Positions 2,606-21,771 of a DNA stretch of 28,504 bases are shown here, in pieces (within the stretch, counting starts at the first letter, position 1; each line of letters begins with the position of its first letter). The stretch spans positions 1-28,504 of IMG/VR virus record IMGVR_UViG_3300042298_000647, one strand, 5' to 3'. This stretch comes from a virus. Below the pieces are notes generated by a model. That model ran no database searches, was not told the origin of the DNA, and saw only the letters and a program-made list of their open reading frames with translations. The translations under genes were made by a program, and so were the position numbers.

Positions 2606-2613
2606 GGATGATC

Positions 2614-5582: not shown

Positions 5583-8500
5583 ATGGCCACCAAGTACTTG
5601 TCCGACGATGAGGTGTTCGGAACCTCGACCTCATACCTTCCCGAGGATGAGGTGTTCGGGACACCCTCTGCTCGCAAGGCCGGCGGTGGCCGCGGGCCCA
5701 TCAACCCGCCTCCTGCGCCCGCGACAGACTACTCTGACATGGCCACGGCCATGCAGGGGGCGCCTACCGGCGGGCCGCTGATTCGCAGCGTGCTGGACCA
5801 GCCCGGCCCCGTGCCGAAGACGCCGGGTTACGACCCGATGCTGAATCAGGGCTATGTGGCCGAAGTCCGCCGGGACATCATCGGCAAGGCCGCGCCTGAA
5901 GACCGCATGGGCCTGCTGACCACGCTGGCCGAGAACCGCACCGATGTGCTGGGCCGTGCCGCTCGCCAGATCCTGGCTGAGGCGCAGGCAGAAAACAAGC
6001 GCATCAGCCTGGACCAGGAGGGGCGAGTTCAAAGATTGCTGGATGCTCCGCGTGGACCCGGCAATGTCCCGCCGCCCAGGCTTGGTGCCGGCGCAGCTTC
6101 GCCCGTCTCAATTCCTGATGTCACTCCTGGCTTTGGCGACATCATGGATGGCCGCTCGGCCAAGCAGATCGCCGAGCGGCGCATGCTGGCGCAGGGCGTG
6201 CGCGTGGCCGATGAGGGCCTGCGCGTAGACGAGATCAGTGGCGTTACCAGCCAAATGGCGGAAGCCGAAGGGCGCCGCAAGTTTGCTGAAGAGAATCCGC
6301 TGCTGGGTTCTATTGCTGCCGGCTCCGCGGGTTTGATCAGCGGCGTGATCAACATTCCCTCGGTCGCTGCAGACGCCTTCAACAAGACCGCCATCAACCC
6401 AGTGCTTCGCGCATTGGGAATGCAGGATCTTCCGCCCGTGTCTACGGCATTTGGCACCGAGTACCTGGCCAAGTCTGCCAGCGACTTCATGCCAAAGGTT
6501 GGCAAGCAAGAGATGGACGTCGCCATCAAGCGCGACGAGTTCGCGCCTTGGCTGATGTCGAAGCTCGCCGCCAACTCGCCGCAGATCGCGCAGTCTCTGC
6601 TGGCCGCGTTCGCTCCTCCGCTGCGCGCGGTGCTGCTGCCAGGCATGGCAGGTACGGCGTCTGGCCAGAGCTTTGCCCAAGGAGACGACTCTCGCGTGGC
6701 GCTCGCCAAGGGTGCGGTGGAGCATGTATCCGAGAAGCTGCCGCTTGGCGTGTTTGACAAGGTCGGAGACGTGCTCAAGGGGATGTCTCCTGCCAAGGCC
6801 AACACGGTGTTGGCGGTGGCTGGCCAGCGCGCTCTGCAGGCCGGCGGTGCAATCACTGCCAACGGGCTGACCAACGCGATTGAGGAAGTGGCCGCACAGT
6901 TCGGCGGCAACGTGCTCGACAAGTACTTCCAAGGCAAGGACATTGAGCTGACCAAGGGCCTGGCCGAAGCCGGAGTTGTTGGCGGCGTGACGGGCAAGCT
7001 GATGAGCGCGCCCCAGGTTGCCGCCGCGGCGACCGGCTACTACGAGCCTGAGCGCCAGATTGCGCGGGAGATCGACTCGGCTGGGCGTGCGTTTGAGAAC
7101 CTCGGGCCAGAGGCATCTCGAGCTATCAGCATTGACATGCTGCGCACGGAGGCCGGAACCTCCAACCTGATCTCCCCCGCCGCAACCGTCAAGAACTTCA
7201 CCCCGCCCGACTCGCCGACCAAGCAGGCTGGCCTGGTGGACATCGAGGTGCCGCTGCCGAACGCGGCTCCTATCCTGCCCGAGATCAACCCGTCGACCGA
7301 GGAGCAGTTCGGTCTGGATAAGCTGCGCATGGGAGGCGCGAATGTCGGCACAACAGGCTTACCTGGAGGACTGGCTGGAGCAGGGGGTGAGGCAGGGGGC
7401 GGTCTCATTGACGGAAGCATGGGAGCTGCAGGACCTGGCGATGCAGGTGCCCCCGGGCTCGGAGGCAGAACTGCCCCAATCCCTGGAGTCAATGATCGAC
7501 AGGCTGTTCCTCCTGGAGGTGCGCCCGGCCAACAGCCTGCCGGCGTAGCCGTAGGCGGTGAGCCGCTGACTTGGACTGGCCGCGCAAAGACTGGCTACGC
7601 GAACGAGCAGGACGCACAGCAGGCGATGGCCACTGCCAGCACGGTCATCGACACCAGGCAGACTCACGACTGGCGCGTCGAGCCCATAGGCAATGGGCGC
7701 TTTCAAATTGTCGGATACCAAAAGGAGACCAACCTTGGCACGCAAACCCCTCAAGCCCAGCAAGGCCAAACGCAAGGAGCAACACCAGCAGGCCAAATGG
7801 CAGGTGCCGCACAAGGCGGCGCAGGTGGCATCCCAGCAGCAACCGGCACGCCGGTTGAACTGTCTGATACTGAACGTGCCGGACTGAAGCTCGCGCCGAC
7901 GGCGCCTCTGCGAGAGCTGAGCTCGCTCAACAAGCAGCTCGATCAGCAGATCGGTGTCACGTTTTCGCCGGTCAAGTCGACCGACCTGAACGACTCGCAG
8001 CGCCTGGCCAGCGCGGTGGCGCGCCTGATGGGCAAGACCCTGACGGTAGTCCACCAGGAGACCGGTGCAGGCGCGCTGCCCAACGGCATGATCAACACCG
8101 TCGGCGGCAAGCACCTGTTCGTCGCCGACGATGCGGACGATGCGCCCTTGGCCATCACAGTGCATGAGGCCTACCACGGCCTGCCGGAGGCTCAGCGCAA
8201 GAGCCTGAATGCTGCGCTGCTGGATCTGTTCCGCCAGGACCGCAAGGACAAGTTCCTCGACGAGTTCAGCTACACGCCGGACAAGTTCGAGGAGGAAGCC
8301 CCGGCCATGATGGTGCAGGCCATCAGCAAGCGCGAGGACTTCTGGCAAGAGCTGCGCACGAAGATGGGCAACAAGGAGTTCGGCGAGGTGGCCAAGACCA
8401 TCATCGCCAAGCTCGGCGACATCATCACCGGCGCCAAGAAGCAGTACGGCGAAGACTTCGTCAACAAGTACATCTCCGACGTCGAGAAGGCTCGCAACCT

Positions 8501-11500
8501 GCTGACGACCGCTTACGCCGACGCGATGAAGGCGCAGGGCCTGCAGCCCGATGTGAAGATTGCTGGCGAGGCGATGGCGTCGAACCGCACGACCACGCCA
8601 GAGACCGACGCCCAAGCGAGCCGGTTCGGCTTTGATCAGCCTGGCCCAGAGGCCGGCGAGTACGCGATTGCAGTCAGCGGTTTGGGGGATGTGATCGGGC
8701 GTGTGGTGAGCTCACCTGATGAGCCACTGCGCATGGAGATTAGCCCCGAGTACATGGGGCGCCGCTTCGGATCGAAGGTGGCAGAGGGTGACGCTGCGAT
8801 CAAGGCCGCGATCAAATGGGCAAGTGACGGCATCCAGCAGGGCCGCAAGAAGCTGGCGGCCATGGCGATGGCTGAAGAGCGCGGGCTGCCCACGCCTGGC
8901 GCTGGGTCGGCTCGCTTGCCTATGGCCTCCGAGCGTTCGCGCATCGGCATGAACTTCAAGGACGTCGTCAAGCGCACGCCTGAGCTGCAGGAGGGCATGG
9001 CAAAGCTACAGGCTGGAGAGATTACCAAGGCCGACTACGACAAGCTGGTCAACGAGTACAAGCCAGTCGAGCCGTACCAAAGCGTGCCGGAGCCAGTGAC
9101 CACCGAGGCAGCGAAGTTTGCCCTAGCCAATGGCAAAGGCCAGTCCGAAGAGAAGGCCGCCAAGTTCGGATTGCCGAGCCAAGAGTTCAAGGCCGGCGAG
9201 GTGGCGCAGTTGCGCCTGGACATCCCGTCGTACTCCGAGCACGGCGCCTGGGTGGTCAGCGTCCACCGTCCCGAAGGGCGTTCGTTCAGCGCCGGCAAGG
9301 TCATTGGCTACGAGCCGGTCGCGTCGGTGACGAATGCCGAGTTCGGCATGCTCGAGAAGTCTGCAGCGAAGATCGCGGCCGGCTCAGCCAAGGGCACGAT
9401 CGCCACGATCATGGGCGACTGGAAGCCCACGACTGCGGCCGAGGCAAAGCTCAAGGCCGACCAGGCGCTGAAGTCCAAGGACTGGGTGCAGGTCGGCATG
9501 GACCCCGAGCGGCACAGCTACTTCTACGACCGCTCCAGCATGGAGCCAGTGACGGCCGCCGACGAGGTCATCCAGATCGGTCCCCTGGTGCTGGCCAAGA
9601 ACCCGACCTACGGCAAGAAGTCGGAGTTCATGTTCAGCAACCGGGTGGTCCCGAAGGCCATCGAGTACCAGCCCAAGCGCGACAACTTCGCTGCGCCGAA
9701 GACCTCAGAGTTCCTGCCGAGCGAGCTGGTCGAGCGCGCCCGCGGGTACATCACCCAGTTCAAGGCCGAGGCTGCACCCGTTCAGATCTCTGGCGCCGAT
9801 CGCGTGAAGGCCGAGGGCCTGCTGCGCCCGCGCCTGCAGGCTGCGCAGGAGGCCAAGCTCGACTATGACCAAAAGATCCTGGACATCGGTGAGCGCACCG
9901 GCGCGCTGGGTCAGATGCTGGCGCCGATCAAGGGCATCAAGCGCGCCGCCGAGAAGCTGGCCGTTGAAGAGAAGTTCAACGTCGACAACATCAAGGACCT
10001 GCTGCGCTCGACGATCGTGGTCGACAGCTACGCTGATGCGCCGGCCGTGGTCGACGAGATCCGCAAAGAGTTCGAGGTCGTGCGCGTCAAGAATCGCACC
10101 GACATCGAGATGGCGGGCAACGACGTCGACAACAAGGGATTCCTGTCGTCAGGCTACGGCGACGTGCTGATCAATGTCCGCACGCCCAACGGCACGATAG
10201 CCGAGATCCAGATCAACGTGCCCGAGATGCTCGCCGCCAAGGGCGAGGAAGGGCACGAGCTGTACGAGATCGAGCGCGATCAGCCGGAAGGGTCTGACAT
10301 CCGCCGGGCGGTTGTCGAGGCCCAGTCCGAGTACTACCGCGAGGCCGCGGCCGCCGCTGCGCGCAGGAAGTACGCCTCGTCGGAAGGGGCGCCGGAGCGG
10401 GGGAGCGCGTCGCGCTCGAGCAGCTCGCCGCTCGCGTCGTCGAGCTTGAACACACGGCCGTCTGGGAACTTGACCCAGTCGTCGCCGGAGAACGAGGCAA
10501 CGAACTTGCAGCCGGGCGGGAAGGAAGAGGGGACTTTCATAGGATCTCCTGACGAGTCGAGTATATCACAACCCTTATACACAAAGCCGCCTCGGCGGGG
10601 CGCCGAAAGGATCGGGAGCTTTGATGTTCGCACCATGAAGGACGGCTCGATTGTCGTCTACGGTGATTCGCAAAACATCAGATCGCAGATCCCAGAAGAC
10701 GTCAAGGGTCGCGTCACCAAGGACGGCTACCTCTTTACCAACGCAGCCGCGCCTCGTGTAAAGGCCGCGCTCGAGGGGCGCAAGACCGCCTACAGCCGCG
10801 GTGGTCAGGTCACCGAGAAGCTGCCCATGAAAGACGGCAAGTACCTGGGCGCGCCCGAGAAGTACAACACCCCTGGAAAGATCGTCGCGCTGCGCAAGCA
10901 ACTGCGCATGCTCACGCTGGAGGGGGAGCGCGGCCGCTACTGGTACGAGAACAGCAGCCTGGCGATCTTGCGCATGACTGGCGGCAACGTGCAGGAGGCG
11001 CGCAAGTTCGTGGCCCTGCTGGCCATCTACAGCCCGCAGGCGCGTGTCGACAGCAACTCGACGTTTGCTCTGCGAGCCTGGGCGCAGTACAAGGCTGGCC
11101 AGCCAATCAGCGTGAAGACCGGAGTGCAGGACAAGAAGGCGACCCAGGCCATGGCCGACGTCGACGCCTTCTGGTCTGGCGAGAAGACAGGCAACTTCTT
11201 CTTCAATCTGTTGCGCGAGATCGACACCAGCACTGCCGGCAAGCAGGGCGCGACGATCGACATGTGGATGATGCGTGCGGCCGAGTACGCCAACGACGCG
11301 CCCACTGCCACGCAGTACGCCTTCATGGAAAACGAGACCAACCGTATTGCGCAGGAAATGGGCTGGGAGCCGCAGCAAGTGCAGGCCGCCATCTGGGTCG
11401 CGATGAAGGCCCGCATGGAGAACAAGGGTGTCAAGCAGAGGACCGAGGCCACCAGCGAGAAGAAGGGCTGGATCAAGTTCGAGCGCGATGCGAAGGGCAA

Positions 11501-14156
11501 GAAGGTCCGCGTGATCATCGACGCACAGAAGCACCGCGACAACTGGCTCAAGCATGCGATGGAGCATGTGCCAACGAAGGCAGACACCGAGCAGGCCAAG
11601 TTCGACTTCGCCGATGGAGTCGGGCGCCACATCGGCCAGCTTTCGTTCGAGGCTCGGCCAGGCCGCAGCACGGGCGTTCTGGATGGGATCCACACCGCAC
11701 CGTATGCCCAGCAGGTGGAGTTCCAGCAGGCCGTGCAACGTGCGTTCTACGACGAGAACGGCACCGACATGCTGGCTGCACAGCTCGGCCTGCTGACGGA
11801 GCCCAGCGACATCATGCGCCCTGGCGTGTGGCAGGGCGAGGTGTCACCCAGCACGCAGAAGCGCGTGGCAATGGCGCCGGCTGGTGGCGATGCTGGCAAG
11901 ACCAACGTCGACCCGGCGCAGGCCGAACTGCTCAACGTCTATGCGTCTGTGGCTGGCCTGGTGGCCAGGCAGGAAGGGGTGGGCTGGCACCGGCCGTTCT
12001 ACGCCGGCACGAAGGGGCAGTCCAACGGCCTAGACATCGACATCGGCCGAGCGCTGAACCCAACCGAGACGAAGGACCTCGAGGCGGCGATCGGCAAGTG
12101 GATGGATGAGAAGAAACACGCCAACTGGCAGAACCAGTTTGCGCTGATCAGCTCGCCCACTGGCATAAGAGTTGTGAATTTCGGTATCATCACAAACGCA
12201 GTACTCCAGTCCGACATCGTGAAGGTCGCGGAAGGTGTGCTGCCAGATGGATCTGTGCGCGTGTTCGCCTCAAGTGGCGACATGCCAACTAACGACTGGG
12301 AGGCAAACCCCAATGGGCAAACTTACGTACAAAGGATTGGTGCCGCGGGACGATCCGATGTTCTCGACTGGGCCAGAAGTGTTCTCGCGCCTCGGGTCCA
12401 GCGAGTCTTCGAGGACTTCGCCGAAAAGTACCAGTGGGGAGACCCCGGCCGAATCCAGTTCAGCAACCGAGGCGGATCCGATGCAGCCGGCGGTGGACGC
12501 GATCGAGGAGTGGGGCCGCAAGACGTTCAAGCGGTAACCCCTTCCTACGGCACCCCTCGAGAGGGCGCCGCTTCCGCGGCCGCCTACCACTACAGCACCC
12601 AGCCCCGCACGACCCTAGACAGCGTGATGTATGGCACCGGCCTGCGCGGTGCCGAGATGGCGCGCCTGCAGGGCGCAGACCCGCGCCTGAAGCAGCGCAT
12701 CTACTTCTACATCGATCGCGGCACTGGCATCAATCCTGAGGCCGGCGTGGGCGGCCAGGCTCACCGCGTTAATCTGCAAAACCTGTACGACGTCGACGAG
12801 GACGCGCTGCGTCTGCGCCGCGACAACGAGGCCTTCAACGACTTCGAGTCTGCGGTCATCGACGCCGGCTTCGACGGCTACATGGTGCGCGACGCCGGGC
12901 CGTCAGGCAACGCGGTGCTGCTGGGTCGGCACGCCGTACCCGTCGAGCAGCTCGGCGCTCGCAGTCGCATGGCAGGCGAGCCTGTCGCGCCGGCCCGCGA
13001 GCGGGTGCTGAGTGACGCCGAGAAGATCTCCGCCAACAAGATGCTGCCGGCCGGGCAGGTGTCCGGCAAGCGCTGGGCGGAGCTCATCTCTCGCAGCATG
13101 CCGGAGGTCTACGAGCGCCTGGCTGGCAGCCCGGTGTGGCAGTCCGACAAGGTCATGTACCGCGGCGATCTGGCTCGCGAGCTTCGCGCTCAGCCGATGT
13201 TCAGCAACCGCCAACTGCCGAAGGTGTCGCCGCAAAGCGCGCTGAACAGAGAGATCGAGGGCGCCTCGATCAACCTGCAGCGCTACATCCGCGAGGCGCA
13301 GCAGGATGGCCAGTTGCCGAAGCTCACGATCGGCCGCCTGCCCCATGTGCTCAACATGCTGGGCGCACGCACGCAGGATTTCGACATCGCCACCAGCATT
13401 GTCAAGAAGGTGTTTGTCAGGACCAAAGCAGAAAAAGGACACGCGGACGAGCTGCCCGACATCACGCCCAAGCAGCTCATCGAGGGCATCTACCGCCCGG
13501 CCATGGTGCTGAAGTCGAAGGACGGCAACCCTCGCGAGTTCGAGCTGGTGCTGCCGATCACCAGCGACAAGGGCGCGCTGATCGTCCCGATCAAGGTGTC
13601 GGTGGACAAGACAGACCCGACGGGCGCGGTGATGTCGATCTACGCCAAGGGCGTGTCGATCTCGGGCGGCAAGACCAACGAGCAGGTGCTGATGAAGCGC
13701 ATCAACGACGGCAACCTGCTGTACCTGGACCCGGGCCTGGCCAAACAGGCGATGACGGGGCGCAAGGCTGGAGATCCTAAGGCTGATGTCAAGCTCAATG
13801 GCAACTTCGTGTCTTGGCCTGGGGTGTGGCCCAAGCTCGAGAAGATGATCGCCGACCGCAAGGTCAAGACCGATGTCAACCTGATGGGCTGGATCGGCGA
13901 CAACTACAAGCCGAGCTCGTCGCCGCAGGGCTGGGAGGATGCGCCCGCATTCAGCCAGCGCGCCCGCGCTGAGGACAAGGAAGTGGCCAGCCTGTTCCGC
14001 GATCTGCAAGATGCCCGCGGCCTTGGGCGCGTGCGTGCGCTCGAGCGGGTTGACGCGCACCCGATGGCTGAGACAATCCGCCGCATCGACCAAGAGTTCA
14101 TGGACATCCTGGAGCGGCTCGACGACGCCGGCCTGGTGAAGATCAACTGCAAGTGA
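5583..14156 (+). CDS. Giant polyvalent virion protein (metallopeptidase, RelA/SpoT-like, ART-like and BECR-nuclease-like regions)
   Basis: A 2857-aa multidomain protein. Residues 1-30 carry YLxxDEVFGT twice, 12 residues apart. Residues 237-485 are hydrophobic and Gly-rich with a zipper-like GLAEAGVVGGVTGKL. A gluzincin-like site H861-E862-A-Y-H865 is followed near 901-906 by candidate third-ligand Glu residues. Residues 1157-1345 form an unassigned domain containing ERHSYFYDR. Residues 1405-1565 resemble a RelA/SpoT synthetase (D1472, Y1525, E1541). Residues 1675-1960 are an unassigned helical domain. Residues 2318-2460 look ADP-ribosyltransferase-like (YHYS, IYFYIDRG), weakly. Residues 2580-2700 resemble MuF-C/BECR nucleases (LPHVLNMLG, KGHADELPD, MSIYAKG). 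This mix fits phage polyvalent proteins ejected with DNA. Linkers at 7342-7887 and 12313-12537 show low third-position GC (about 41-58%, against about 90% elsewhere) where other frames are coding-like, and 10335-10560 is Ser-rich. Confidence 0.88.
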   Translation: MATKYLSDDEVFGTSTSYLPEDEVFGTPSARKAGGGRGPINPPPAPATDYSDMATAMQGAPTGGPLIRSVLDQPGPVPKTPGYDPMLNQGYVAEVRRDIIGKAAPEDRMGLLTTLAENRTDVLGRAARQILAEAQAENKRISLDQEGRVQRLLDAPRGPGNVPPPRLGAGAASPVSIPDVTPGFGDIMDGRSAKQIAERRMLAQGVRVADEGLRVDEISGVTSQMAEAEGRRKFAEENPLLGSIAAGSAGLISGVINIPSVAADAFNKTAINPVLRALGMQDLPPVSTAFGTEYLAKSASDFMPKVGKQEMDVAIKRDEFAPWLMSKLAANSPQIAQSLLAAFAPPLRAVLLPGMAGTASGQSFAQGDDSRVALAKGAVEHVSEKLPLGVFDKVGDVLKGMSPAKANTVLAVAGQRALQAGGAITANGLTNAIEEVAAQFGGNVLDKYFQGKDIELTKGLAEAGVVGGVTGKLMSAPQVAAAATGYYEPERQIAREIDSAGRAFENLGPEASRAISIDMLRTEAGTSNLISPAATVKNFTPPDSPTKQAGLVDIEVPLPNAAPILPEINPSTEEQFGLDKLRMGGANVGTTGLPGGLAGAGGEAGGGLIDGSMGAAGPGDAGAPGLGGRTAPIPGVNDRQAVPPGGAPGQQPAGVAVGGEPLTWTGRAKTGYANEQDAQQAMATASTVIDTRQTHDWRVEPIGNGRFQIVGYQKETNLGTQTPQAQQGQTQGATPAGQMAGAAQGGAGGIPAATGTPVELSDTERAGLKLAPTAPLRELSSLNKQLDQQIGVTFSPVKSTDLNDSQRLASAVARLMGKTLTVVHQETGAGALPNGMINTVGGKHLFVADDADDAPLAITVHEAYHGLPEAQRKSLNAALLDLFRQDRKDKFLDEFSYTPDKFEEEAPAMMVQAISKREDFWQELRTKMGNKEFGEVAKTIIAKLGDIITGAKKQYGEDFVNKYISDVEKARNLLTTAYADAMKAQGLQPDVKIAGEAMASNRTTTPETDAQASRFGFDQPGPEAGEYAIAVSGLGDVIGRVVSSPDEPLRMEISPEYMGRRFGSKVAEGDAAIKAAIKWASDGIQQGRKKLAAMAMAEERGLPTPGAGSARLPMASERSRIGMNFKDVVKRTPELQEGMAKLQAGEITKADYDKLVNEYKPVEPYQSVPEPVTTEAAKFALANGKGQSEEKAAKFGLPSQEFKAGEVAQLRLDIPSYSEHGAWVVSVHRPEGRSFSAGKVIGYEPVASVTNAEFGMLEKSAAKIAAGSAKGTIATIMGDWKPTTAAEAKLKADQALKSKDWVQVGMDPERHSYFYDRSSMEPVTAADEVIQIGPLVLAKNPTYGKKSEFMFSNRVVPKAIEYQPKRDNFAAPKTSEFLPSELVERARGYITQFKAEAAPVQISGADRVKAEGLLRPRLQAAQEAKLDYDQKILDIGERTGALGQMLAPIKGIKRAAEKLAVEEKFNVDNIKDLLRSTIVVDSYADAPAVVDEIRKEFEVVRVKNRTDIEMAGNDVDNKGFLSSGYGDVLINVRTPNGTIAEIQINVPEMLAAKGEEGHELYEIERDQPEGSDIRRAVVEAQSEYYREAAAAAARRKYASSEGAPERGSASRSSSSPLASSSLNTRPSGNLTQSSPENEATNLQPGGKEEGTFIGSPDESSISQPLYTKPPRRGAERIGSFDVRTMKDGSIVVYGDSQNIRSQIPEDVKGRVTKDGYLFTNAAAPRVKAALEGRKTAYSRGGQVTEKLPMKDGKYLGAPEKYNTPGKIVALRKQLRMLTLEGERGRYWYENSSLAILRMTGGNVQEARKFVALLAIYSPQARVDSNSTFALRAWAQYKAGQPISVKTGVQDKKATQAMADVDAFWSGEKTGNFFFNLLREIDTSTAGKQGATIDMWMMRAAEYANDAPTATQYAFMENETNRIAQEMGWEPQQVQAAIWVAMKARMENKGVKQRTEATSEKKGWIKFERDAKGKKVRVIIDAQKHRDNWLKHAMEHVPTKADTEQAKFDFADGVGRHIGQLSFEARPGRSTGVLDGIHTAPYAQQVEFQQAVQRAFYDENGTDMLAAQLGLLTEPSDIMRPGVWQGEVSPSTQKRVAMAPAGGDAGKTNVDPAQAELLNVYASVAGLVARQEGVGWHRPFYAGTKGQSNGLDIDIGRALNPTETKDLEAAIGKWMDEKKHANWQNQFALISSPTGIRVVNFGIITNAVLQSDIVKVAEGVLPDGSVRVFASSGDMPTNDWEANPNGQTYVQRIGAAGRSDVLDWARSVLAPRVQRVFEDFAEKYQWGDPGRIQFSNRGGSDAAGGGRDRGVGPQDVQAVTPSYGTPREGAASAAAYHYSTQPRTTLDSVMYGTGLRGAEMARLQGADPRLKQRIYFYIDRGTGINPEAGVGGQAHRVNLQNLYDVDEDALRLRRDNEAFNDFESAVIDAGFDGYMVRDAGPSGNAVLLGRHAVPVEQLGARSRMAGEPVAPARERVLSDAEKISANKMLPAGQVSGKRWAELISRSMPEVYERLAGSPVWQSDKVMYRGDLARELRAQPMFSNRQLPKVSPQSALNREIEGASINLQRYIREAQQDGQLPKLTIGRLPHVLNMLGARTQDFDIATSIVKKVFVRTKAEKGHADELPDITPKQLIEGIYRPAMVLKSKDGNPREFELVLPITSDKGALIVPIKVSVDKTDPTGAVMSIYAKGVSISGGKTNEQVLMKRINDGNLLYLDPGLAKQAMTGRKAGDPKADVKLNGNFVSWPGVWPKLEKMIADRKVKTDVNLMGWIGDNYKPSSSPQGWEDAPAFSQRARAEDKEVASLFRDLQDARGLGRVRALERVDAHPMAETIRRIDQEFMDILERLDDAGLVKINCK
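7342..7548 (+). CDS. Overprinted small gene 1 inside the giant gene (acidic 68-aa protein)
   Basis: A 68-aa reading frame in +1 phase relative to the giant gene. ATG at 7342 is preceded by GGGAGG (7331-7336) with a 5-nt gap, a near-ideal ribosome binding site. The product is acidic and helical (AYLEDWLEQGVRQGAVSL, then MIDRLFLLEVRP), with normal composition and two Trp. By hand count its third positions are about 85% GC (58 of 68), while the giant frame over the same bases is only 41% (28 of 69) and encodes Gly/Ala/Pro low complexity. So the codon choice here follows the nested frame, not the giant frame. Function is unknown and there is no signal peptide. The alternative is an old frameshifted domain remnant that happens to keep a start and binding site. 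Confidence 0.6.
   Translation: MSAQQAYLEDWLEQGVRQGAVSLTEAWELQDLAMQVPPGSEAELPQSLESMIDRLFLLEVRPANSLPA
7735..7887 (+). CDS. Overprinted small gene 2 inside the giant gene (basic 50-aa protein, TTG start)
   Basis: A second frame in the same +1 phase, beginning with TTG at 7735, 7 nt after AGGAG in AAAGGAGA (7721-7728), and ending at TGA 7885-7887. The product is strongly basic at its N-terminus (ARKPLKPSKAKRKEQ) and Gln-rich. Third positions are about 80% GC (39 of 49) against 42% (21 of 50) for the giant frame, which here reads as Gln/Gly/Ala/Pro low complexity. The upstream ATG at 7693 in the same frame lacks a binding site, so TTG is preferred. It lies 186 bp after overprinted gene 1; the two products are oppositely charged. 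Function is unknown. The non-ATG start and short length make it less sure than gene 1. Confidence 0.45.
   Translation: MARKPLKPSKAKRKEQHQQAKWQVPHKAAQVASQQQPARRLNCLILNVPD
10334..10540 (-). CDS. Antisense small gene nested in the giant gene, early-gene type
   Basis: A 68-aa protein on the strand opposite the giant gene. ATG (complement of 10538-10540) is preceded by CAGGAGA with about 5 nt spacing. The product looks like a real small protein with a central WVKFPDGRVFKLDD motif and an Ala-rich tail. That motif resembles LIELPDGTVFNFDD at the end of the early protein at 28021-28329. The leaders also match: GACTCGTCAGGAGA here against GACACGTCAGGAGA there. A -10 TATACT with TGTGA directly upstream is present, as in the early promoters. 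Third positions are about 90% GC, while the sense frame reads as Ser-rich filler with codons such as GGG, CGG and TTG. It seems to be an early-type cassette inserted or copied into the late gene. Function unknown. Confidence 0.72.
   Translation of the reverse strand: MKVPSSFPPGCKFVASFSGDDWVKFPDGRVFKLDDASGELLERDALPRSGAPSDEAYFLRAAAAAASR
10560..10588 (-). promoter_or_regulatory. Candidate early-type promoter for the antisense nested gene
   Basis: On the - strand: extended -10 TGA-TATACT (hexamer at 10565-10560) with TGTGA immediately upstream (10570-10566). This is the same placement as in the four early promoters, but only one half of the TCACA-NN-TGTGA operator is kept. The -35 region (around 10582-10588) is poor. 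A start about 7 nt downstream of the -10 would leave a leader of roughly 13-15 nt with the ribosome binding site. Confidence 0.5.
12313..12537 (+). CDS. Possible overprinted small gene 3 inside the giant gene
   Basis: A 74-aa frame in +1 phase to the giant gene. ATG at 12313 follows GGGAGG with a 9-nt gap, and the stop is TAA at 12535-12537. The product has a plausible N-terminus (MGKLTYKGLVPRDDPMFSTG), a Ser/Thr/Glu-rich middle and a C-terminal helix (AVDAIEEWGRKTFKR). Third positions are about 76% GC, against 58% for the giant frame over the same stretch. In the first half the giant frame also looks like genuine protein (DVLDWARSVLAPRVQRVF), so both frames may be used. An in-frame ATG at 12235 has no clear binding site. 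Function is unknown. Confidence 0.38.
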   Translation: MGKLTYKGLVPRDDPMFSTGPEVFSRLGSSESSRTSPKSTSGETPAESSSATEADPMQPAVDAIEEWGRKTFKR

Positions 14157-14165
14157 GGTATCACA

Positions 14166-14657
14166 ATGCCTGTCTCCAATCTGCTCGACAAGCCCACCGA
14201 GGACATGCTGAACAAAGCGGTCCACGCCGAGCTCTACGCCTCGCACCTGTACAAGCACATCGCCAACCAGATGCAGCGCGTCGGGTTCTTCGGCACGCAG
14301 AAGTTCTTCGCTGGCGAGAGCGCTGACGAGCTGAAGCACTACCAGCTCATCGCCGACTACATGAACGACCGCGGCACCAGCGCGAAGGTGCCGGCGCTCG
14401 AGGCCTGCACTGAGGTGGTCACCGACATCGTCGACGCCATCGAGCTGGGCTACGAGACCGAGCTGCAGCTCATGCGCGACTACGAGAAGTGGTATCGCGA
14501 GTGCAAGTGCGTGACGACCCAGCAGTTCATGCTGCAGTTCCTCGAGACCCAGCGCAAGAGCGTGGGCGAGTACGGCGACCTGATGTCGCGCCTGGGCCTG
14601 GTGAGCGGCGACAAGGCGGGCATGTTGATGATGGACCAGGAGCTGGGCAATGGCTGA
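14166..14657 (+). CDS. Ferritin-like iron-storage/ferroxidase protein
   Basis: A 163-aa protein matching bacterial non-haem ferritin (FtnA) over its whole length: four long helices and the FtnA-like ending MLMMDQEL. Ferritins oxidise Fe(II) at a di-iron centre and store ferric mineral in a 24-mer shell. Site A ligands are present: E22 in HAELYAS, and E55 and H58 in ADELKHYQ (FtnA E17, E50, H53). Q129 matches FtnA Q127. A Glu at 97 or 99 can supply the E94 ligand, but the position of FtnA E130 appears to be Ser132, so site B may be altered. GAGG lies 8 nt before the ATG. It is co-directional between the giant gene (9 bp) and the 854-aa gene (8-bp overlap), so it is part of the late operon. Whether it is in the virion is unknown. 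Confidence 0.85.
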   Translation: MPVSNLLDKPTEDMLNKAVHAELYASHLYKHIANQMQRVGFFGTQKFFAGESADELKHYQLIADYMNDRGTSAKVPALEACTEVVTDIVDAIELGYETELQLMRDYEKWYRECKCVTTQQFMLQFLETQRKSVGEYGDLMSRLGLVSGDKAGMLMMDQELGNG

Positions 14658-17214
14658 GAACTGCACCTACACGTTCAAGACGGCGGGAGGCGAGGTCACC
14701 ATCAAGGGGATGGCCGAGATGAAGGCCTTCCTCGCCTTGAACGGTGTGGATGCAATCGAGGGCGCGGAGGCTCCTGCGTTCAGCCGACGCGCTGAAACTG
14801 AGCCAGGGCCCAGCCTCAGCAAGCGCGCCAAGCAGTCCTGGTTCCTCGGCCGCGACGACCTGGGCAACTTCACCTTCGGCGCCGGCGCGAAGGCCTACCG
14901 CTACGCGGCCGACGTGGCCAACCTGGTGTTGGACAAGATGGCTCTCAAGCCCATCAGCACCGACCTGTCGCGGGCCATGCGGAAGATGAAGATGGAGATC
15001 TCCAAGGCCCAGGAGCTGACGGTGGACGTGGCCACCAAACTGCAGGAGCTGCCGCAGCAAGAGCGCGAGATGATCAGCGACGTCATCGAGGGCGAGCTCA
15101 AGCGTGGCGCCAAGCCGCCCAAGCGCGTGCTCGAGCTGGCGGCAAGCATGCAGGCCATCATGTCCGAGCAGACCGCGGAGCTGGTGCGCCTGGGCATGCT
15201 GACGAAGGACGCGGCCGGCCGGTGGGACGGCAAGTACCTGCCGCGCTTCTACGAGTCCAAGCTCAGGGGCGAGGCCAACGCATGGGCCAAGGCGACCATG
15301 GCGTTGCTTGGTCGCAAGAAGACGATGCAGGGCATCGGCGGCTCCAGCCTGAAGGGCCGGGGTCTGTTTCAGACCATACCCGTTGAAGACCTCGAGGCCT
15401 GGCTTGCCGAAGGATGGGAGGAACGCGACCCCGACTTTGACCCCGACACCGACACTGAGATCACGGTCTGGCGCGACTACACCCGCCAGGAGCGCGACGA
15501 CATGGGCGAGATTCGGGACTCCATGTTCCGGTTCGTCATGGGCTACAGCAAGAGCCAGCGTGACATCTCGCTGGGCCGGCTGTACGAGAACATCGCCAGC
15601 ACCGTAGCCAGCAAGAAGGAGAAGCCTGGTTTCGTGCAGGTGCCGCGCACCAACATCGAGGACACCTATGCCAAGCGGTACGGCAAGCTGGCCGGCATGT
15701 GGGTTCCCCAAGAGGTGCTGGACCACCTGACCGCTTTTGATGACTCGATGCAGAGCGAGGTGCTGAAGATGTACCTCAAGGGCATGAGCATGTGGAAGGA
15801 GGGCAAGACCGTGCTGAACCCGGTCAGCCACGCCAACAACATCATGTCCAACGTGACCATGGCGCACTTCGCTGGCGTGTCCTACTGGGACGCTCACAAG
15901 TATGTGGCCACCACGCGCGACATCATGAAGAACGCGCCGATGCTGCAGGAGGCGAAGGACGCCGGCCTGTGGCTGGGCACCATGACCCAGGCCGAGATGA
16001 CCGACCTTCTGCCTGACCAGCTCAAGGTGCTGGCCGCCAAGACCGAGAGCAAGGCGGGCCAGGCGGTGGAGGGCGTGTGGAACGCGCTGTCGTTCTGGCT
16101 GCGCAAGCCTATGGGCAAGGCCTACGAGGCCGAGGACCTGTTCTTCCGCTACCTGATCTACCGCGAGGCTCGCACCAAGGGGCTGACTCCAGATGAGTCC
16201 GTCGACTACGCCCAGAAGTTCATCTTCACCTACGACGACCTGCCGAAGAACGCCAGGCGCATCCGCGACTTCGCCCTGCCGTTCTTTGCCTACACCTACA
16301 AGGCGATCCCGGCGATGTTCGAGGCGGCGCTGACCCACCCCTGGCGGTATGCTGCCCCGGCAGCGGCGCTGTACACGATCAACGCGGCCATGTATGCGAT
16401 CGCTGCAGGGGCGGGCGAAGACGAGGAGTGGTGGGAGCTGATCAAGCGGCGCTTCACTGACGAGGACTTCGCGGCCAAGGCCAAGGCCCTGGAGGCCGAC
16501 GAGCGCAAGAACCTGCCTGAGTGGATGAAGGGCGCCAGCCTGACGCTGGGGACCTACAAGTCCATCCGCCTCGGGATGGACGAGGCGACAGGCCTGCCCG
16601 TGTTCCTGGACGTCAGCCGGATCTTCCCGGGCGGCGACCTGTTCGACGCGGTCAACAACGCTGGCGGCGTGCCGCTGATCGCACCGCTCACTCCGAACAA
16701 CCCGATCCTGACAACGGCCTACGCCATGCTGGCCAACAAGGACACGTTCCGTGGCAAGGATATCGTGACCGCGGCCGACACCGAAGCAGAGGCTGCAAAG
16801 AAGCGCGCCGAATGGGCGTGGAAGCAGTTCACCCCAGCGGTCGCGGTAGGCAACGCCCACTTCGAGCGGGCGATGAACGTGATCGCCAACCAGATGGGCG
16901 AGCCCTTGAACTTGGGAATCGCCGAGTACACCGGCGTAGACAAGCAGGGTCAGCCGGTGTCGCTTGTCTACTCTGCCATGCAGACCGTCGGCATCAAGGC
17001 CAGGCCCATCGACCTAGAGCTGTCAGAGAAGATCCGGCAGTCGCAGGAGAACAAGCTCATCCGAGACATCGAGGCCAGCATGCGCAGCATTCGCCGCCTG
17101 GAGCAGAAGGGTGCGATCAGCTCCGAGAATGCTGAGCGCCAGATCGAGCTGCAGCAAGAAAAGAGAGACCGGCTCAGGGCCGGTCTCACGGTGGAAGGCA
17201 AGGAGCGGGACTGA
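14650..17214 (+). CDS. 854-aa polyvalent-type virion protein (LPD38-like)
   Basis: Residues 1-60 form a short N-terminal module ending in EAPAFSRRAETE, a motif also found near the C-terminus of the giant protein. The rest is largely helical. TVLNPVSHANNIMSNVTM at about 395-412 resembles the large polyvalent-protein-associated domain (LPD38 type) found at the C-termini of giant phage virion proteins; the exact family is from memory. Hydrophobic segments at about 545-590 (FFAYTYKAIPAMFEAAL, then AALYTINAAMYAIAAGAG) could insert in a membrane. The end is a charged coiled coil. AGGAG precedes the ATG, and the start overlaps the ferritin gene by 8 bp. In related phages this region may be fused to the giant protein. 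It probably belongs to the ejected internal protein set (inference). Confidence 0.8.
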   Translation: MAENCTYTFKTAGGEVTIKGMAEMKAFLALNGVDAIEGAEAPAFSRRAETEPGPSLSKRAKQSWFLGRDDLGNFTFGAGAKAYRYAADVANLVLDKMALKPISTDLSRAMRKMKMEISKAQELTVDVATKLQELPQQEREMISDVIEGELKRGAKPPKRVLELAASMQAIMSEQTAELVRLGMLTKDAAGRWDGKYLPRFYESKLRGEANAWAKATMALLGRKKTMQGIGGSSLKGRGLFQTIPVEDLEAWLAEGWEERDPDFDPDTDTEITVWRDYTRQERDDMGEIRDSMFRFVMGYSKSQRDISLGRLYENIASTVASKKEKPGFVQVPRTNIEDTYAKRYGKLAGMWVPQEVLDHLTAFDDSMQSEVLKMYLKGMSMWKEGKTVLNPVSHANNIMSNVTMAHFAGVSYWDAHKYVATTRDIMKNAPMLQEAKDAGLWLGTMTQAEMTDLLPDQLKVLAAKTESKAGQAVEGVWNALSFWLRKPMGKAYEAEDLFFRYLIYREARTKGLTPDESVDYAQKFIFTYDDLPKNARRIRDFALPFFAYTYKAIPAMFEAALTHPWRYAAPAAALYTINAAMYAIAAGAGEDEEWWELIKRRFTDEDFAAKAKALEADERKNLPEWMKGASLTLGTYKSIRLGMDEATGLPVFLDVSRIFPGGDLFDAVNNAGGVPLIAPLTPNNPILTTAYAMLANKDTFRGKDIVTAADTEAEAAKKRAEWAWKQFTPAVAVGNAHFERAMNVIANQMGEPLNLGIAEYTGVDKQGQPVSLVYSAMQTVGIKARPIDLELSEKIRQSQENKLIRDIEASMRSIRRLEQKGAISSENAERQIELQQEKRDRLRAGLTVEGKERD
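17151..17187 (-). terminator. Intrinsic terminator of the minus-strand operon, inside the 3' end of the 854-aa gene
   Basis: A perfect 9-bp stem, GAGACCGGC (17165-17173) and GCCGGTCTC (17179-17187), with a 5-nt loop. Read on the - strand it is followed by TCTTTTCTT; read on the + strand no T-run follows. It therefore ends - strand transcription about 30 bp past the last early gene, while encoding the C-terminus of the converging + strand protein. Confidence 0.75.
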
Positions 17215-17215
17215 C

Positions 17216-17860
17216 CTACTCGCCCCGCTCGTCGTAGGTCACCGTCGAGGTGTCGCCCAGGCGCCACTTCGCGGTGTTCTCCACCCGGAAGATGCGGGTG
17301 CACACCTTGAAGTCGGGCATGCGCAGCTCGCTGTGGGTGATCGCCGGGTCGAAGAACCTGCAGCGGTTGTTCGGCTGCAGTGCGAACTGGCCGTTGTCCA
17401 GGCGCAGAAGGTTGAACGACTTGTGCTCCTCCGGCGTCTCGCTGAACCCGAAGTCAGGGACCCGCGGGTCGGGGTTGCACGAGTCGATCGTCAGCATGTA
17501 CTCGCCCGGGTGCAGCTTCTTGTCCTTGCCGAAGAACTCAGCGCGCAGGCCCTTGAGGAAGGGCTTGTCGATCACCTCGATGTGGTAGCTCATGCAGTCC
17601 CAGATCTGCAGGACATCCAGCGGTAGCTGATCATCCTCCTCGAGGACGTCGTGCCACACGAACGCGCTCAGGGGCAGCTTGTCATACAGCGCGCCGAACT
17701 CCGGGAGGTAGGTCTCGAAGCGGAAGGCCTGGCCGCGGATGGACTTGGCGCTGACCCAGATCCCTTCGATGAGCTGGCCGACCCGGGATGGGTCGTGGTC
17801 GTAGAGGTACTCGGCGCGCACGAAGACTTTCTCGGGCGGCAGTGGACAGACAAAGCTCAT
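17216..17860 (-). CDS. Phage protein of unknown function, 214 aa
   Basis: A protein I do not recognise by family. The start at 17860 is chosen because AAGGAGG lies 5 nt upstream and the ATGA overlaps the stop of the MazG-like gene. Longer in-frame extensions run antisense-like through that gene and have shadow composition. The protein looks globular and mostly beta. Notable stretches are WVSAKSIRGQAFRFETYLPE, FGALYDKLPLSAFVWHD, a Cys in DSCNPDPRVPDFGF, and NNRCRFFDPAITHSELRMPD. There is no signal or membrane segment. It is the last gene of the - strand operon, 1 bp from the convergent + strand stop, and its transcript ends at the terminator at 17151-17187. Confidence 0.8.
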   Translation of the reverse strand: MSFVCPLPPEKVFVRAEYLYDHDPSRVGQLIEGIWVSAKSIRGQAFRFETYLPEFGALYDKLPLSAFVWHDVLEEDDQLPLDVLQIWDCMSYHIEVIDKPFLKGLRAEFFGKDKKLHPGEYMLTIDSCNPDPRVPDFGFSETPEEHKSFNLLRLDNGQFALQPNNRCRFFDPAITHSELRMPDFKVCTRIFRVENTAKWRLGDTSTVTYDERGE

Positions 17861-18174
17861 GCTGCCTCCTTGACGAAGACGCCAGATGGCAGCAGTGTGC
17901 CCTTGCGGTTCTTGATTTCGTCGTATGCGCCGGCCAGACAGTCGACCATGTCGATGTCTAGCAGGGCACACATGTTGATCAGGCACACCAGGGTGTCGCC
18001 GACGGCGTCCTTGGTGGCGGCCAGATCCTTCTTGTTGATGGCGTCGGCCAGCTCGCCCATCTCCGACACAGCCTTCAGGAACTGGGCCTGCGCCGTGCTG
18101 TTCGGGATGATGCGCCTGGCCTCAGCCCAGCGGATGACATCCATCTCGACTTCGCGGTAGCTGCTGCGGTTCAT
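17857..18174 (-). CDS. MazG-like nucleotide pyrophosphohydrolase
   Basis: A 105-aa all-alpha protein with the MazG-type pattern: E38-M-G-E41 in a first metal-binding helix (SEMGELADAINKKD), then KDAVGD (residues 55-60) entering the next helix, where D60 is the conserved Asp. Family members hydrolyse (d)NTPs or related nucleotides to monophosphate and PPi. The usual E-x-x-D of the second helix reads A57-V-G-D60 here, so one metal ligand may be replaced or supplied by D56; activity is uncertain. It is linked by 4-bp ATGA overlaps to both neighbours. Phage MazG proteins are usually viewed as nucleotide-pool or alarmone modulators. Confidence 0.75.
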   Translation of the reverse strand: MNRSSYREVEMDVIRWAEARRIIPNSTAQAQFLKAVSEMGELADAINKKDLAATKDAVGDTLVCLINMCALLDIDMVDCLAGAYDEIKNRKGTLLPSGVFVKEAA

Positions 18175-18981: not shown

Positions 18982-19619
18982 TTGTTTCCCTTCCTCATGT
19001 TCTCCCTCGCCGGTATTACGCGAAGGTTCCAAGGCACATGCAGACCGCTTACGTTTGACCCGTTCAGCGGAACAATGTGGTCAACGTGATGCTTAACGCC
19101 AGTTCGATTTGTCATCCACCTTGCTTCTTTGTACCTGAGCTTCATCGCCTCAATGTGTTCAGGAGCCAGCCAATGCGGCGTCCTGAGAATCTTTCCAGAG
19201 TGGCGCTTTTTCTGAGCCGCTGTCTTGACTGCGCGCACTTTGTCAAAGTTTTCCTTTATGTATCGCCTTGAGCTTTCTTGGCACTTGCTTTTGTTTCTTT
19301 CGTAATAGCGCTTTGATGTCTGCAATCTTTTTTCTTGATTGCTTAGAAGGTACTTCTCTCGCGCTTTTTTGAACGCCGCCTTACCTTCTTCTGTTTTTCG
19401 GTACTTTTCCCGAGCCTCAACGCGATGAGGCGCTATTGCCCTGCTCTTGTCGTACTCGCGTATGCGATCGATGTTTGCTGCGCGATGATTTTTGACGTCT
19501 GATTTTGTGCAGGGCTTGCACTTGTTTAGATGTCCATCTGCCATCATCTTGTGCTTGTAAAAATCATTGAGAGGTCTTACGCACAAGCACTTAAAGCATG
19601 TTTTTTCTGAGGTGTTCAT
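18978..19619 (-). CDS. Free-standing HNH homing-type endonuclease with N-terminal zinc finger
   Basis: A 213-aa protein. The N-terminus has a C8-x2-C11 and C34-x2-C37 zinc-binding motif. The middle (about 50-150) is a Lys/Arg/Tyr-rich helical DNA-binding region with repeated KYR, KYL and RYY elements. The C-terminus is an HNH nuclease core with D180-H181 (HHVDHIVPL), N198 (PWNLRV) and N207. The gene is clearly richer in A/T than its neighbours, with many T-runs on the + strand, a sign of recent transfer. It sits between the Cys-rich protein gene and DUF3310 and is joined to the latter by GTGA. Such genes usually act as selfish homing elements that cut alleles lacking the insertion; no intron is visible around it. 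Confidence 0.88.
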   Translation of the reverse strand: MNTSEKTCFKCLCVRPLNDFYKHKMMADGHLNKCKPCTKSDVKNHRAANIDRIREYDKSRAIAPHRVEAREKYRKTEEGKAAFKKAREKYLLSNQEKRLQTSKRYYERNKSKCQESSRRYIKENFDKVRAVKTAAQKKRHSGKILRTPHWLAPEHIEAMKLRYKEARWMTNRTGVKHHVDHIVPLNGSNVSGLHVPWNLRVIPARENMRKGNK

Positions 19620-19626
19620 GCGCCTC

Positions 19627-19824
19627 TCACTTAAAAGGTATGGCGTCCCACCGCCATTCGTCGCATCCGCTGGCCACGATGTCGGGCGGCGGCGCTGCGT
19701 CGAACTTCTTGCAGTAGTTGCTCATGTAGTGCTCGCAGCTTTGGCAGTTGATCCTGATCGACTGCAGCCTCTTCAGCTCGCGGCCGTGAAGCTCGAGGCG
19801 GATGTTCAGTTCGGTCTTGGTCAT
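19627..19824 (-). CDS. Small Cys-rich protein, probable zinc binder
   Basis: A 65-aa protein. The start at 19824 is chosen from the ATGA overlap with the helicase stop; a longer in-frame extension upstream is only shadow of the helicase. It has an N-terminal helix (TELNIRLELHGRELKRLQ), then four cysteines in NCQSCEHY, SNYCKK and SGCDEW, spaced to bind one metal ion. Similar tiny Cys4 proteins accompany phage replication genes, but no role is known to me. The 7-bp gap to the HNH gene suggests that gene was inserted just downstream of it. Confidence 0.8.
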   Translation of the reverse strand: MTKTELNIRLELHGRELKRLQSIRINCQSCEHYMSNYCKKFDAAPPPDIVASGCDEWRWDAIPFK

Positions 19825-21437
19825 GCTGGTTGGTCCCACTGGTGGGACACGATGGTCGGGTACTGCCCGGCCCGGTTGACGATCACGGCCGCGGGCCTGC
19901 GCAGGATCTGGTCGTCGTACTCCAGCCACTCGAGGGCTTCCTCGGTGTCGTGGGGCACGGCGTCGATCTTGGCGCGCATGGCCCACCAGGCCTCGGCCTT
20001 CTTGCGTGCGTAGCCGTCGTGGCTGAGGCACACCCACTCAGAGGCCACGCGCTGAAAGCCGTCGTAGTACTCCACGCGCAGGCTCTCGGTGCCGCCTTCC
20101 TTGTGGTGCAGGCGATAGCGCACGTCGGTGACAGGCACCATCTCCATCATGGTCTTGGCCTGGCTGCTGAGGATGGCCGCGCTCGAGGCCTGGTCGCCGT
20201 GCTTGATGCGCTCAGGCTCCGGGAACTTGAAGTTGCAGTCGACGCACTGCGTCGCGGCCGCCAGGTTCTTGCTGCCGCAGTTGGGGCACAGCTTGCTGGG
20301 CGCCTCGCCCTTGCGCTTGGTGCTGGGCATGCGTCCCTTGACCTCGTCGACCGGGCCCATCTCGATCGTGGTGTCGGTGAAGTCCGCCCACAGGCAGTCG
20401 GTCTTCCCGTCGGCGATCCGCATCCCGCGGCCGGCGATCTGGACGTACAGCACCGGGCTCTTGGTGGCGCGCAGCAGCGCGATGAAGTCCACCTCCGGGA
20501 CGTCGAAGCCTGTGGTCAGCACGGCCACGTTCACCAGGCAGCGAATCCTGCCCCCGCGGAAGGCCGCAATCAGGGCTGCACGCTCTTGTTTCGGGGTCTC
20601 CGAACTCACCACCTCAGCCGCCACTCCGCGGCGCTGTAGCGCGTCCCTGACGTGCTCGGCGTGGGCGATCGTCACGGCAAACACCAGCCACCGCTTGCGG
20701 GCGCGGGCGAGCTCGACGATCTCCTTGCAGGTGGCCTCCACGAGGCCGGGCCTGTCGGTGACCTTGGCCAGCTCGCTGACGACGTAGTCATCGCCCGACA
20801 TCCGCACGTCCCGTGCGTCCACCCTGGCCACGGTCGGGGCTGGCACCAGGGGAGACAGGAACTTCAAGCCCAGCAGTTCCTTCATCGTCACCCTGGTGGC
20901 GACGTTGGTGAACAGCGGCTCTTCTCCGGCCGTGGCCCACACGCCGTTGCCGCGGAATGGGGTTCCTGTCCAGCCGATCACGCGGGTGTGCGGGTTGTAC
21001 TTGGTCAGGTCAGCCAGGAATGTGCGCCACATCCCAGTCTGTTTTGGGTTGATCAGGTGACACTCGTCGGCCAGCACGATGTCGATGCGGCCGAGGCGGT
21101 GCGCCTGCTTGTAGATGCTGCCGATCGTGGCGTAGGTGAGCTGGTGACCCATCTGCTTCTTGCCGATGGCCGCCGAGTACAGGCCCACGTCCGCGGTTGG
21201 CCAGATCTTCAGCAACTTCTCGATGTTCTGCTCGAGCAGCTCCTTCTGGTGGACCAGCACCAGCACCCTGGTGCCCGGGTGTTCGGCGTCAGCGCGCTGC
21301 GCCAGGGCCGCGATCATCAGGCTTTTGCCGGCGCCGACGCAGGCCTCGACGATGGGGTTGCCGCCCTCGTGCCGGTTGAACCACGCCCAGAGCTCGTCCA
21401 GTGCGCGGGCTTGGTAGGGGCGAAGAGAGTAAGTCAT
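19821..21437 (-). CDS. SF2 DEAD/DEAH-box-type helicase with zinc ribbon
   Basis: A 538-aa ATP-dependent helicase. The N-terminal Q-like motif is LRPYQARALDEL. Walker A is V34-GAGKS39, Walker B is D124-E-C-H127, motif III is T157-G-T-P160, and motif VI is QIAGRGMR in the second RecA lobe. A zinc ribbon follows (CPNCGSKNL, then CVDCNF). The C-terminus is a mixed domain without clear assignment. ATG at 21437 is chosen because it overlaps the stop of the tiny upstream gene (ATGA); a TTG six codons upstream is possible but lacks a binding site. It is likely the replicative or recombination helicase of the phage, working with the nuclease, Sak4 and DUF669 proteins in the same operon. I see no primase or polymerase in the window. 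Confidence 0.93.
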   Translation of the reverse strand: MTYSLRPYQARALDELWAWFNRHEGGNPIVEACVGAGKSLMIAALAQRADAEHPGTRVLVLVHQKELLEQNIEKLLKIWPTADVGLYSAAIGKKQMGHQLTYATIGSIYKQAHRLGRIDIVLADECHLINPKQTGMWRTFLADLTKYNPHTRVIGWTGTPFRGNGVWATAGEEPLFTNVATRVTMKELLGLKFLSPLVPAPTVARVDARDVRMSGDDYVVSELAKVTDRPGLVEATCKEIVELARARKRWLVFAVTIAHAEHVRDALQRRGVAAEVVSSETPKQERAALIAAFRGGRIRCLVNVAVLTTGFDVPEVDFIALLRATKSPVLYVQIAGRGMRIADGKTDCLWADFTDTTIEMGPVDEVKGRMPSTKRKGEAPSKLCPNCGSKNLAAATQCVDCNFKFPEPERIKHGDQASSAAILSSQAKTMMEMVPVTDVRYRLHHKEGGTESLRVEYYDGFQRVASEWVCLSHDGYARKKAEAWWAMRAKIDAVPHDTEEALEWLEYDDQILRRPAAVIVNRAGQYPTIVSHQWDQPA

Positions 21438-21508
21438 TCCACGCTCATCCAGCAACCCGCGATGGGCACGGCAACGACCTTGCGCATGAAAAGCTCTTCG
21501 CGCTTCAT
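21434..21508 (-). CDS. Tiny 24-aa gene bridging two genes by ATGA overlaps
   Basis: ATG (complement of 21506-21508) overlaps the stop of the 88-aa gene, and its own TGA overlaps the helicase ATG, so it fits exactly between two genes in a chain where such overlaps are the rule. The product is MKREELFMRK followed by a hydrophobic VVAVPIAGCWM and ends in SVE. It may be a real microprotein or a translational coupler that delivers ribosomes to the helicase start, which has no good binding site of its own. Confidence 0.6.
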   Translation of the reverse strand: MKREELFMRKVVAVPIAGCWMSVE

Positions 21509-21771
21509 GCGGCCCCCGCCTTGACCAGGAACATCGGCGTGCGCGGTCCGACGTAGGCGCCTGCGGTGTTGAAGCTGAACCACTCCTCAGCCTCTTCGCG
21601 GTCCATGCCGCCCAGCATCAGGCTGCTGATCACCTCCTCTTGGTCGTACACCACGACAGGCTCCATGCCGCAGCGGTGCGCCACGCCGACGATGCAGCGA
21701 TCAAAGGACTCTGGCGGATCTAGGAACAACAGTTCTTCGCCGTACTCTTCGGCCAGTGATTCCCGATTCAT
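21505..21771 (-). CDS. Hypothetical early-operon protein, 88 aa
   Basis: No family recognised. It is acidic, starts with EEYGEELLFLDPPESFD, contains one central strand-helix unit (MEPVVVYDQEEVISSLML) and ends GAYVGPRTPMFLV. The segment RCIVGVAHRCG contains two Cys. It is joined by ATGA overlap to the nuclease gene upstream (stop at 21768) and to the 24-aa gene downstream, which supports it as real. Confidence 0.78.
   Translation of the reverse strand: MNRESLAEEYGEELLFLDPPESFDRCIVGVAHRCGMEPVVVYDQEEVISSLMLGGMDREEAEEWFSFNTAGAYVGPRTPMFLVKAGAA

Follow-up and report, generated by a model that had tools for sequence, protein, structure and literature searches.

The question raised by this locus is what a ferritin gene does in the middle of a phage operon devoted to virion proteins. 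The locus lies in IMG/VR record IMGVR_UViG_3300042298_000647, a viral sequence of 28,504 bases classed as linear; the whole of this stretch is referred to here as the window. The ferritin gene occupies positions 14166–14657 on the + strand and encodes 163 aa from an ATG start in an intact ORF. Residues 13–143 match the Pfam Ferritin profile PF00210 (2.2e-19; 70.2 bits against a cut-off of 24.5), and the protein also matches solved ferritins by sequence (A. fulgidus, 2e-11). Its AlphaFold model, computed as a monomer, has a mean pLDDT of 91.4 and contains helices A–E. Foldseek aligns the model to E. coli FtnA and the V. cholerae ferritin at a TM-score of 0.92, and the top PDB matches are 24-mer ferritins. 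The four-helix bundle and the profile match above cut-off place the protein in the ferritin superfamily; the fifth helix, E, at residues 150–162, together with a closest fold that is that of a 24-mer, marks it as being of the Ftn rather than the Dps type.

The preliminary description had placed a full-length ferritin within a late virion operon and had pointed to its tight translational packing, and both statements hold. A GAGG ribosome-binding site at 14155–14158 (+) overlaps the stop codon of the upstream gene (14154–14156) and lies 7 nt before the ferritin ATG, and the last 8 nt of the ferritin gene belong also to the downstream gene. A Shine–Dalgarno-like motif precedes the ferritin in 70 of 82 loci. 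Pairs that include the window copy give dN/dS values of 0.03–0.30, and the pooled value is 0.11, which indicates purifying selection. Given 97 homologues, ligands that are invariant wherever they are covered, and low dN/dS, the ORF is not a chance one. Of five operon genes compared, the ferritin gene also has the highest GC3 (0.95, against 0.76–0.89 for the other four), which may point to high expression.

In most loci the ferritin gene sits between two large ORFs, usually 8–11 bp after the first and overlapping, or a few bases from, the second; for the most part these two ORFs are giant polyvalent-protein genes. In the window the upstream ORF (5583–14156, +) encodes a polyvalent-type protein of 2857 aa with Pfam DUF7178 above cut-off and MuF_C below cut-off. 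The downstream ORF (14650–17214, +) encodes a virion-operon protein of 854 aa, similar to an ADP-ribosyltransferase gene product of phage Y3 (see below). The body of this protein is related to polyvalent proteins of ferritin-less phages, and its predicted model (pLDDT 48) is too poor for a fold search. In two of the ferritin-less relatives, L122 and L124, the same body is fused to polyvalent domains in a single ORF. The operon is identified as a polyvalent-protein virion operon by DUF7178 in the window, by the ART-PolyVal, LPD3 and ddrB-ParB domains (Pfam) of L122, and by L042, a near-complete contig whose late strand, which is also that of the ferritin, carries TerL, a portal/adaptor protein, MCP and virion structural proteins. 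Other lineages show related arrangements: the ferritin follows a portal gene in L051, to which L052 is related by gene content, and stands beside virion-structural genes in L048.

The remainder of the operon lies upstream on the + strand. An endolysin (phage lysozyme) gene at 3–434 (Pfam, 1e-31) is followed by a virion-operon gene at 548–2605, a GNAT acetyltransferase gene at 2608–3054 and three small virion-operon genes at 3056–3763, 3775–4341 and 4338–5567. The product of 548–2605 is 685 aa long and has Gln-rich repeats of the QQ.FQAAQ.NLDRAQQ type. A gene on the − strand, 17216–17986, converges on the operon with 1 bp between them; it probably starts at the internal Met of MSFVCPLPPEK. Its PHROG label of ferredoxin (2e-88) was set aside, as the sequence has no CxxC cluster.

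The late operon of Pseudoalteromonas phage vB_PunP_Y3, a cultured short-tailed podovirus of the proposed Poorviridae, is collinear with that of the window. The shared order is a Gln-rich gene (19497–21056 in Y3), a GNAT gene (21064–21516 in Y3), two small genes (the first two of the three in the window, matched by sequence), a giant DdrB-like gene, matched by its position, and the ADP-ribosyltransferase gene. The two also have similar lysozymes, although these are encoded at different places. Y3 has no ferritin, and its two polyvalent genes are adjacent, 25 bp apart. Since Y3 lives without a ferritin, the gene is not essential to phages of this type.

The active site had been described as that of FtnA with one ferroxidase ligand changed. 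In alignments, the site A and B residues are E22, Y29, E55, H58, E99 and Q129, with transit residues E51, D54 and E127 and with S132 at the position of FtnA E130. The residues named earlier (E22, E55, H58, Q129 and the Ser) are thus as reported, and E99, the counterpart of FtnA E94, and the ferroxidase tyrosine, Tyr29, are retained as well. Across the 97 members collected, E22, Y29, E51, E55, H58, E99 and Q129 are the sole residues at their positions, save for one or two gapped fragments; position 132 is Ser in 92 members and Ala in 4, and D54 is replaced in 22. By its residues, therefore, the protein has the complete site A/B set (E, E, H, E, Q plus Tyr) of an H/SynFtn-type ferroxidase ferritin.

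The description of a single changed ligand has to be revised. The site C set of FtnA (E49, E126, E129, E130 and H46 in FtnA numbering) is replaced in the phage proteins. In the phages, window positions 51, 54, 127, 128, 131 and 132 are for the most part E, D, E, I/L/T, K/T and S; each of the 34 sampled FtnA-type cellular homologues shows H, E, A/S, E, E and E instead, the single exception within the cellular comparison set being a phage copy borne on a MAG contig. Judged from these alignments, site C of FtnA is remodelled as a whole set, not at a single ligand, while sites A and B remain complete. Bacterial FtnA (PDB 1EUM, 9BYE) shares with the phage ferritin a common fold, site A and the equivalents of E94 and Q127, but identity is 20 % and the FtnA family model (NCBIfam NF007638) gives only 32 bits against a cut-off of 178.

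The closest match in site residues is SynFtn of Synechococcus CC9311 (PDB 5OUW), the sequence of which was confirmed against the SynFtn PDB entries. All ten of the active-site and transit positions compared are equal: SynFtn E33, Y40, E62, D65, E66, H69, E110, E141, Q143 and S146 correspond to phage E22, Y29, E51, D54, E55, H58, E99, E127, Q129 and S132, and neither protein has the FtnA site C. Overall identity is nevertheless only 22 %. In SynFtn, Fe2+ reaches the ferroxidase site by way of Glu141 and Asp65, and oxidised iron is released with the help of Glu62 (PMC8743623). However, the threefold-channel Asp137, which is essential in SynFtn, is Leu123 in the phage ferritin, and the route of iron entry may therefore differ. 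The phage protein also resembles human mitochondrial ferritin, with its Ser144, and the H ferritins of animals in having a di-iron site that lacks site C, Gln, and Ser at the position of E130; the Ser, present in the mitochondrial protein and in some animal H ferritins, can tune O2 chemistry (PMC12092714). Because human mitochondrial ferritin has Ser at this position too, Ser in place of E130 is no sign of decay.

The carriers of the gene are a group of uncultured viruses of bacteria. Successive scans gave 20, 54 and about 172 viral loci, 80 of the last being kept. Among 50,697 records of named or sequenced phages no homologue above about 25 % identity was found, and in 84,980 prokaryotic genomes matches were confined to three short MAG contigs (Burkholderiales, Rhodoferax and Zoogloea). 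All three carry the same giant-ORF context and the same terminal tags on the neighbouring proteins (described below) as the phage loci. Acquisition from a present-day host was considered and rejected, as these three contigs are the only genome matches and no close cellular relative was found. In a maximum-likelihood tree every phage copy falls on one side of a single branch (support 100/100, length 2.4); SynFtn, on a very long branch of uncertain placement, and two animal ferritins fall outside. As far as sequences can tell, the phage ferritins are one phage-only clade under purifying selection. An FtnA-type match occurs in 2 of 300 Burkholderiales genomes, one of the two being the phage contig itself, so that the probable hosts mostly lack an FtnA-type ferritin; some PF00210 protein is present in 54 of 60 Burkholderiales genomes. 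PADLOC gave no match of the ferritin to a known anti-phage defence protein. Two 27-kb Nitratiruptor plasmids, NZ_AP023058.1 and NZ_AP023062.1, carry an ftnA gene and are possibly phage-plasmids.

The proteins on either side of the ferritin bear conserved terminal modules. The upstream giant ends in a C-terminal tag of about 55 aa (13989–14153, +; ...F.DIL..L...G.V.INC[KD]; in the window EFMDILERLDDAGLVKINCK, residues 2803–2857 of the giant), and has a Cys as its last or last but one residue. The downstream protein begins with an N-terminal tag of about 40 aa (14650–14766, +; M..C[TKR]Y.F....G....I.G..A..KA[FY]L), which was found by motif in 79 of 93 loci and by profile in 81. When 16 downstream proteins are aligned, nine columns are invariant, and eight of these fall within the N-tag, which is predicted to form strand–strand–helix (pLDDT about 63–77) followed by a low-confidence linker. 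Purifying selection acts on both tags (omega 0.21 and 0.20). In many loci a motif resembling APAFS[QR]R or [AV][FL]S.[RK]Q recurs between tags and bodies, at 14760–14800 in the window and near residue 2788 of the giant and near residue 42 of the downstream protein; it is possibly a linker or processing site.

The tags keep close company with the ferritin. Their identity between loci follows that of the ferritin (r 0.80 and 0.86 for the two tags); that of the 100 residues after the N-tag does not (r 0.32), and that of the 100 residues before the C-tag is intermediate (r 0.62). In 2.9 million viral contigs, scanned with patterns built from ferritin-bearing loci, the N-tag was found at 56 loci, with the ferritin directly upstream in all 55 that could be tested and the remaining contig cut 41 bp before the tag. 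The C-tag pattern, which had to be drawn from closer sequences since a broad alignment gave no conserved stretch, was found at 34 loci, all with the ferritin directly downstream. Neither tag was found in the ferritin-less relatives L122, L124 and Y3. Ferritins without tags do occur in other lineages, outside the polyvalent context (L046–L052, L033, L041).

From these data a function can be proposed. What the sequences show is an intact protein, encoded in a late virion operon behind a ribosome-binding site of its own, with site A and B residues and most transit residues conserved and with purifying selection acting on it. The reading we prefer, to which we give an even chance, is that it is a late-made, cage-forming ferroxidase of SynFtn/H type, from a phage-only clade, which takes up Fe2+ and limits Fenton damage during assembly and lysis. 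The ferritin would be made late in infection, together with the virion and polyvalent proteins, and would assemble as a 24-mer. The cage would then take up Fe2+ freed as the cell is dismantled, oxidise it with O2 and keep it as a mineral, so that Fenton chemistry would do less harm to virion proteins and packaged DNA during assembly and lysis. Protection of this kind leaves the restriction of the tags to the neighbourhood of the ferritin unexplained.

The tags on the two neighbouring proteins would most likely serve to bring them to the cage. Extended to a full account, this would make the ferritin cage a hub in a complex for virion delivery or assembly, where the flanking polyvalent proteins dock through their C- and N-tags, with bodies freely exchanged and cage and tags co-evolving; the cage might hold the tagged proteins in store or in an inactive state, or accompany them into the virion, the iron being cargo or just part of the fold. 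That account is tentative and on balance improbable, though several results fit it: tags that track the ferritin beside a downstream body that does not, the reciprocal scans, the lack of tags in ferritin-less relatives, the selection on both tags, and the predicted small fold of the N-tag with its linker. Likewise, a 138-aa protein upstream of the ferritin in one locus (L055:9576–9992) comprises hardly anything beyond a start resembling the N-tag, a charged linker and a C-tag. Polyvalent proteins are, moreover, thought to be packaged and injected (PMC5512222). However, a 24-mer in its folded state, at about 12 nm, is too large to go through a phage portal, so that packaging would need to occur at the capsid assembly stage and delivery as a cage is unlikely. 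The tagless ferritins of other lineages also speak against a general docking role, and physical linkage alone could hold tags and ferritin together as one cassette. Taken by itself, such linkage would make the ferritin and the tag-coding ends a recombination cassette, with tags that serve the polyvalent proteins independently of the ferritin and travel by proximity. Conservation is indeed symmetrical about the ferritin and declines with distance, and bodies have been swapped beside it: relative to the window, L004, L005 and L009 have ferritins 97–99 % identical and most of the downstream body replaced after the tag. Nevertheless, ferritin-less relatives with the same body have no tags, and none was found apart from ferritin in the scanned contigs, with the patterns used; linkage as the whole explanation is thus quite unlikely.

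Two further readings concern the ferritin alone. It might supply iron, as a store for iron-dependent enzymes of the infected cell or for virion tails. Ferritin is a storage protein, and iron in phage tails and the use of iron receptors have been proposed (the Ferrojan hypothesis), which count in favour; viral ferritin in giant viruses has also been interpreted along these lines (PMC7136201). Against it, none of 25 listed Pfam families, out of 34 matched by 68 early-region proteins of ferritin-bearing contigs, is an iron-dependent metabolic enzyme, and service to an iron enzyme of the phage was set aside within that scope. The late operon of the window likewise contains no HxH iron-binding tail motif or HxH-rich tail protein, and the late position leaves little time for metabolic gain; iron supply is accordingly rated as unlikely. 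The other reading, in which a gene taken from a host is decaying or neutral and its ferroxidase site is broken, rests its case on the Ser in place of Glu130 of FtnA. This was ruled out as wholly improbable: Ser or Ala is fixed in the phage family, omega is 0.03–0.30, SynFtn and human mitochondrial ferritin have Ser there (PMC12092714), and no close cellular homologue was found. The preliminary description would have been contradicted by homologues in unrelated host operons and a decaying copy here, and no such homologues were found; the low dN/dS and the retained ligands point the other way.

The insertion of the ferritin into a virion gene block, and the finding of the tags only beside it, suggest that iron management is part of assembly or infection in these phages. 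If either protection during assembly or docking were correct, iron handling would become part of phage morphogenesis; if docking were, the tags would offer existing handles by which proteins could be loaded on ferritin cages.

The ferritins known from viruses are auxiliary genes of scattered occurrence. A ferritin is known in giant viruses (NCLDV; PMC7136201), and ferritins or bacterioferritins are known in gut Flandersviridae (PMC11780533) and in a sediment virus (PMC10904782). These, together with BFVD entry A0A8D9C9X5, are ferritin-superfamily genes in viruses, as is the gene in the window, but the BFVD matches and matches in faecal phages have about 25 % identity or less to the window ferritin, and the virion-operon family is absent from the published descriptions of the NCLDV, Flandersviridae and viral bacterioferritin genes. 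Two further BFVD entries, A0A6J7XDU5 and A0A6J7WPK9, are prohead proteases from uncultured phages and show a fold match of Dps type, which suggests that other ferritin-like domains are fused to capsid-assembly proteins. Searches of the open-access literature yielded no description of the phage ferritin family, of its site type or of the tags. The ferritins described here, by comparison, form a large virus-only clade fixed within a particle-making operon, with an unusual SynFtn-type site and with tags on the neighbouring proteins that are conserved together with it.
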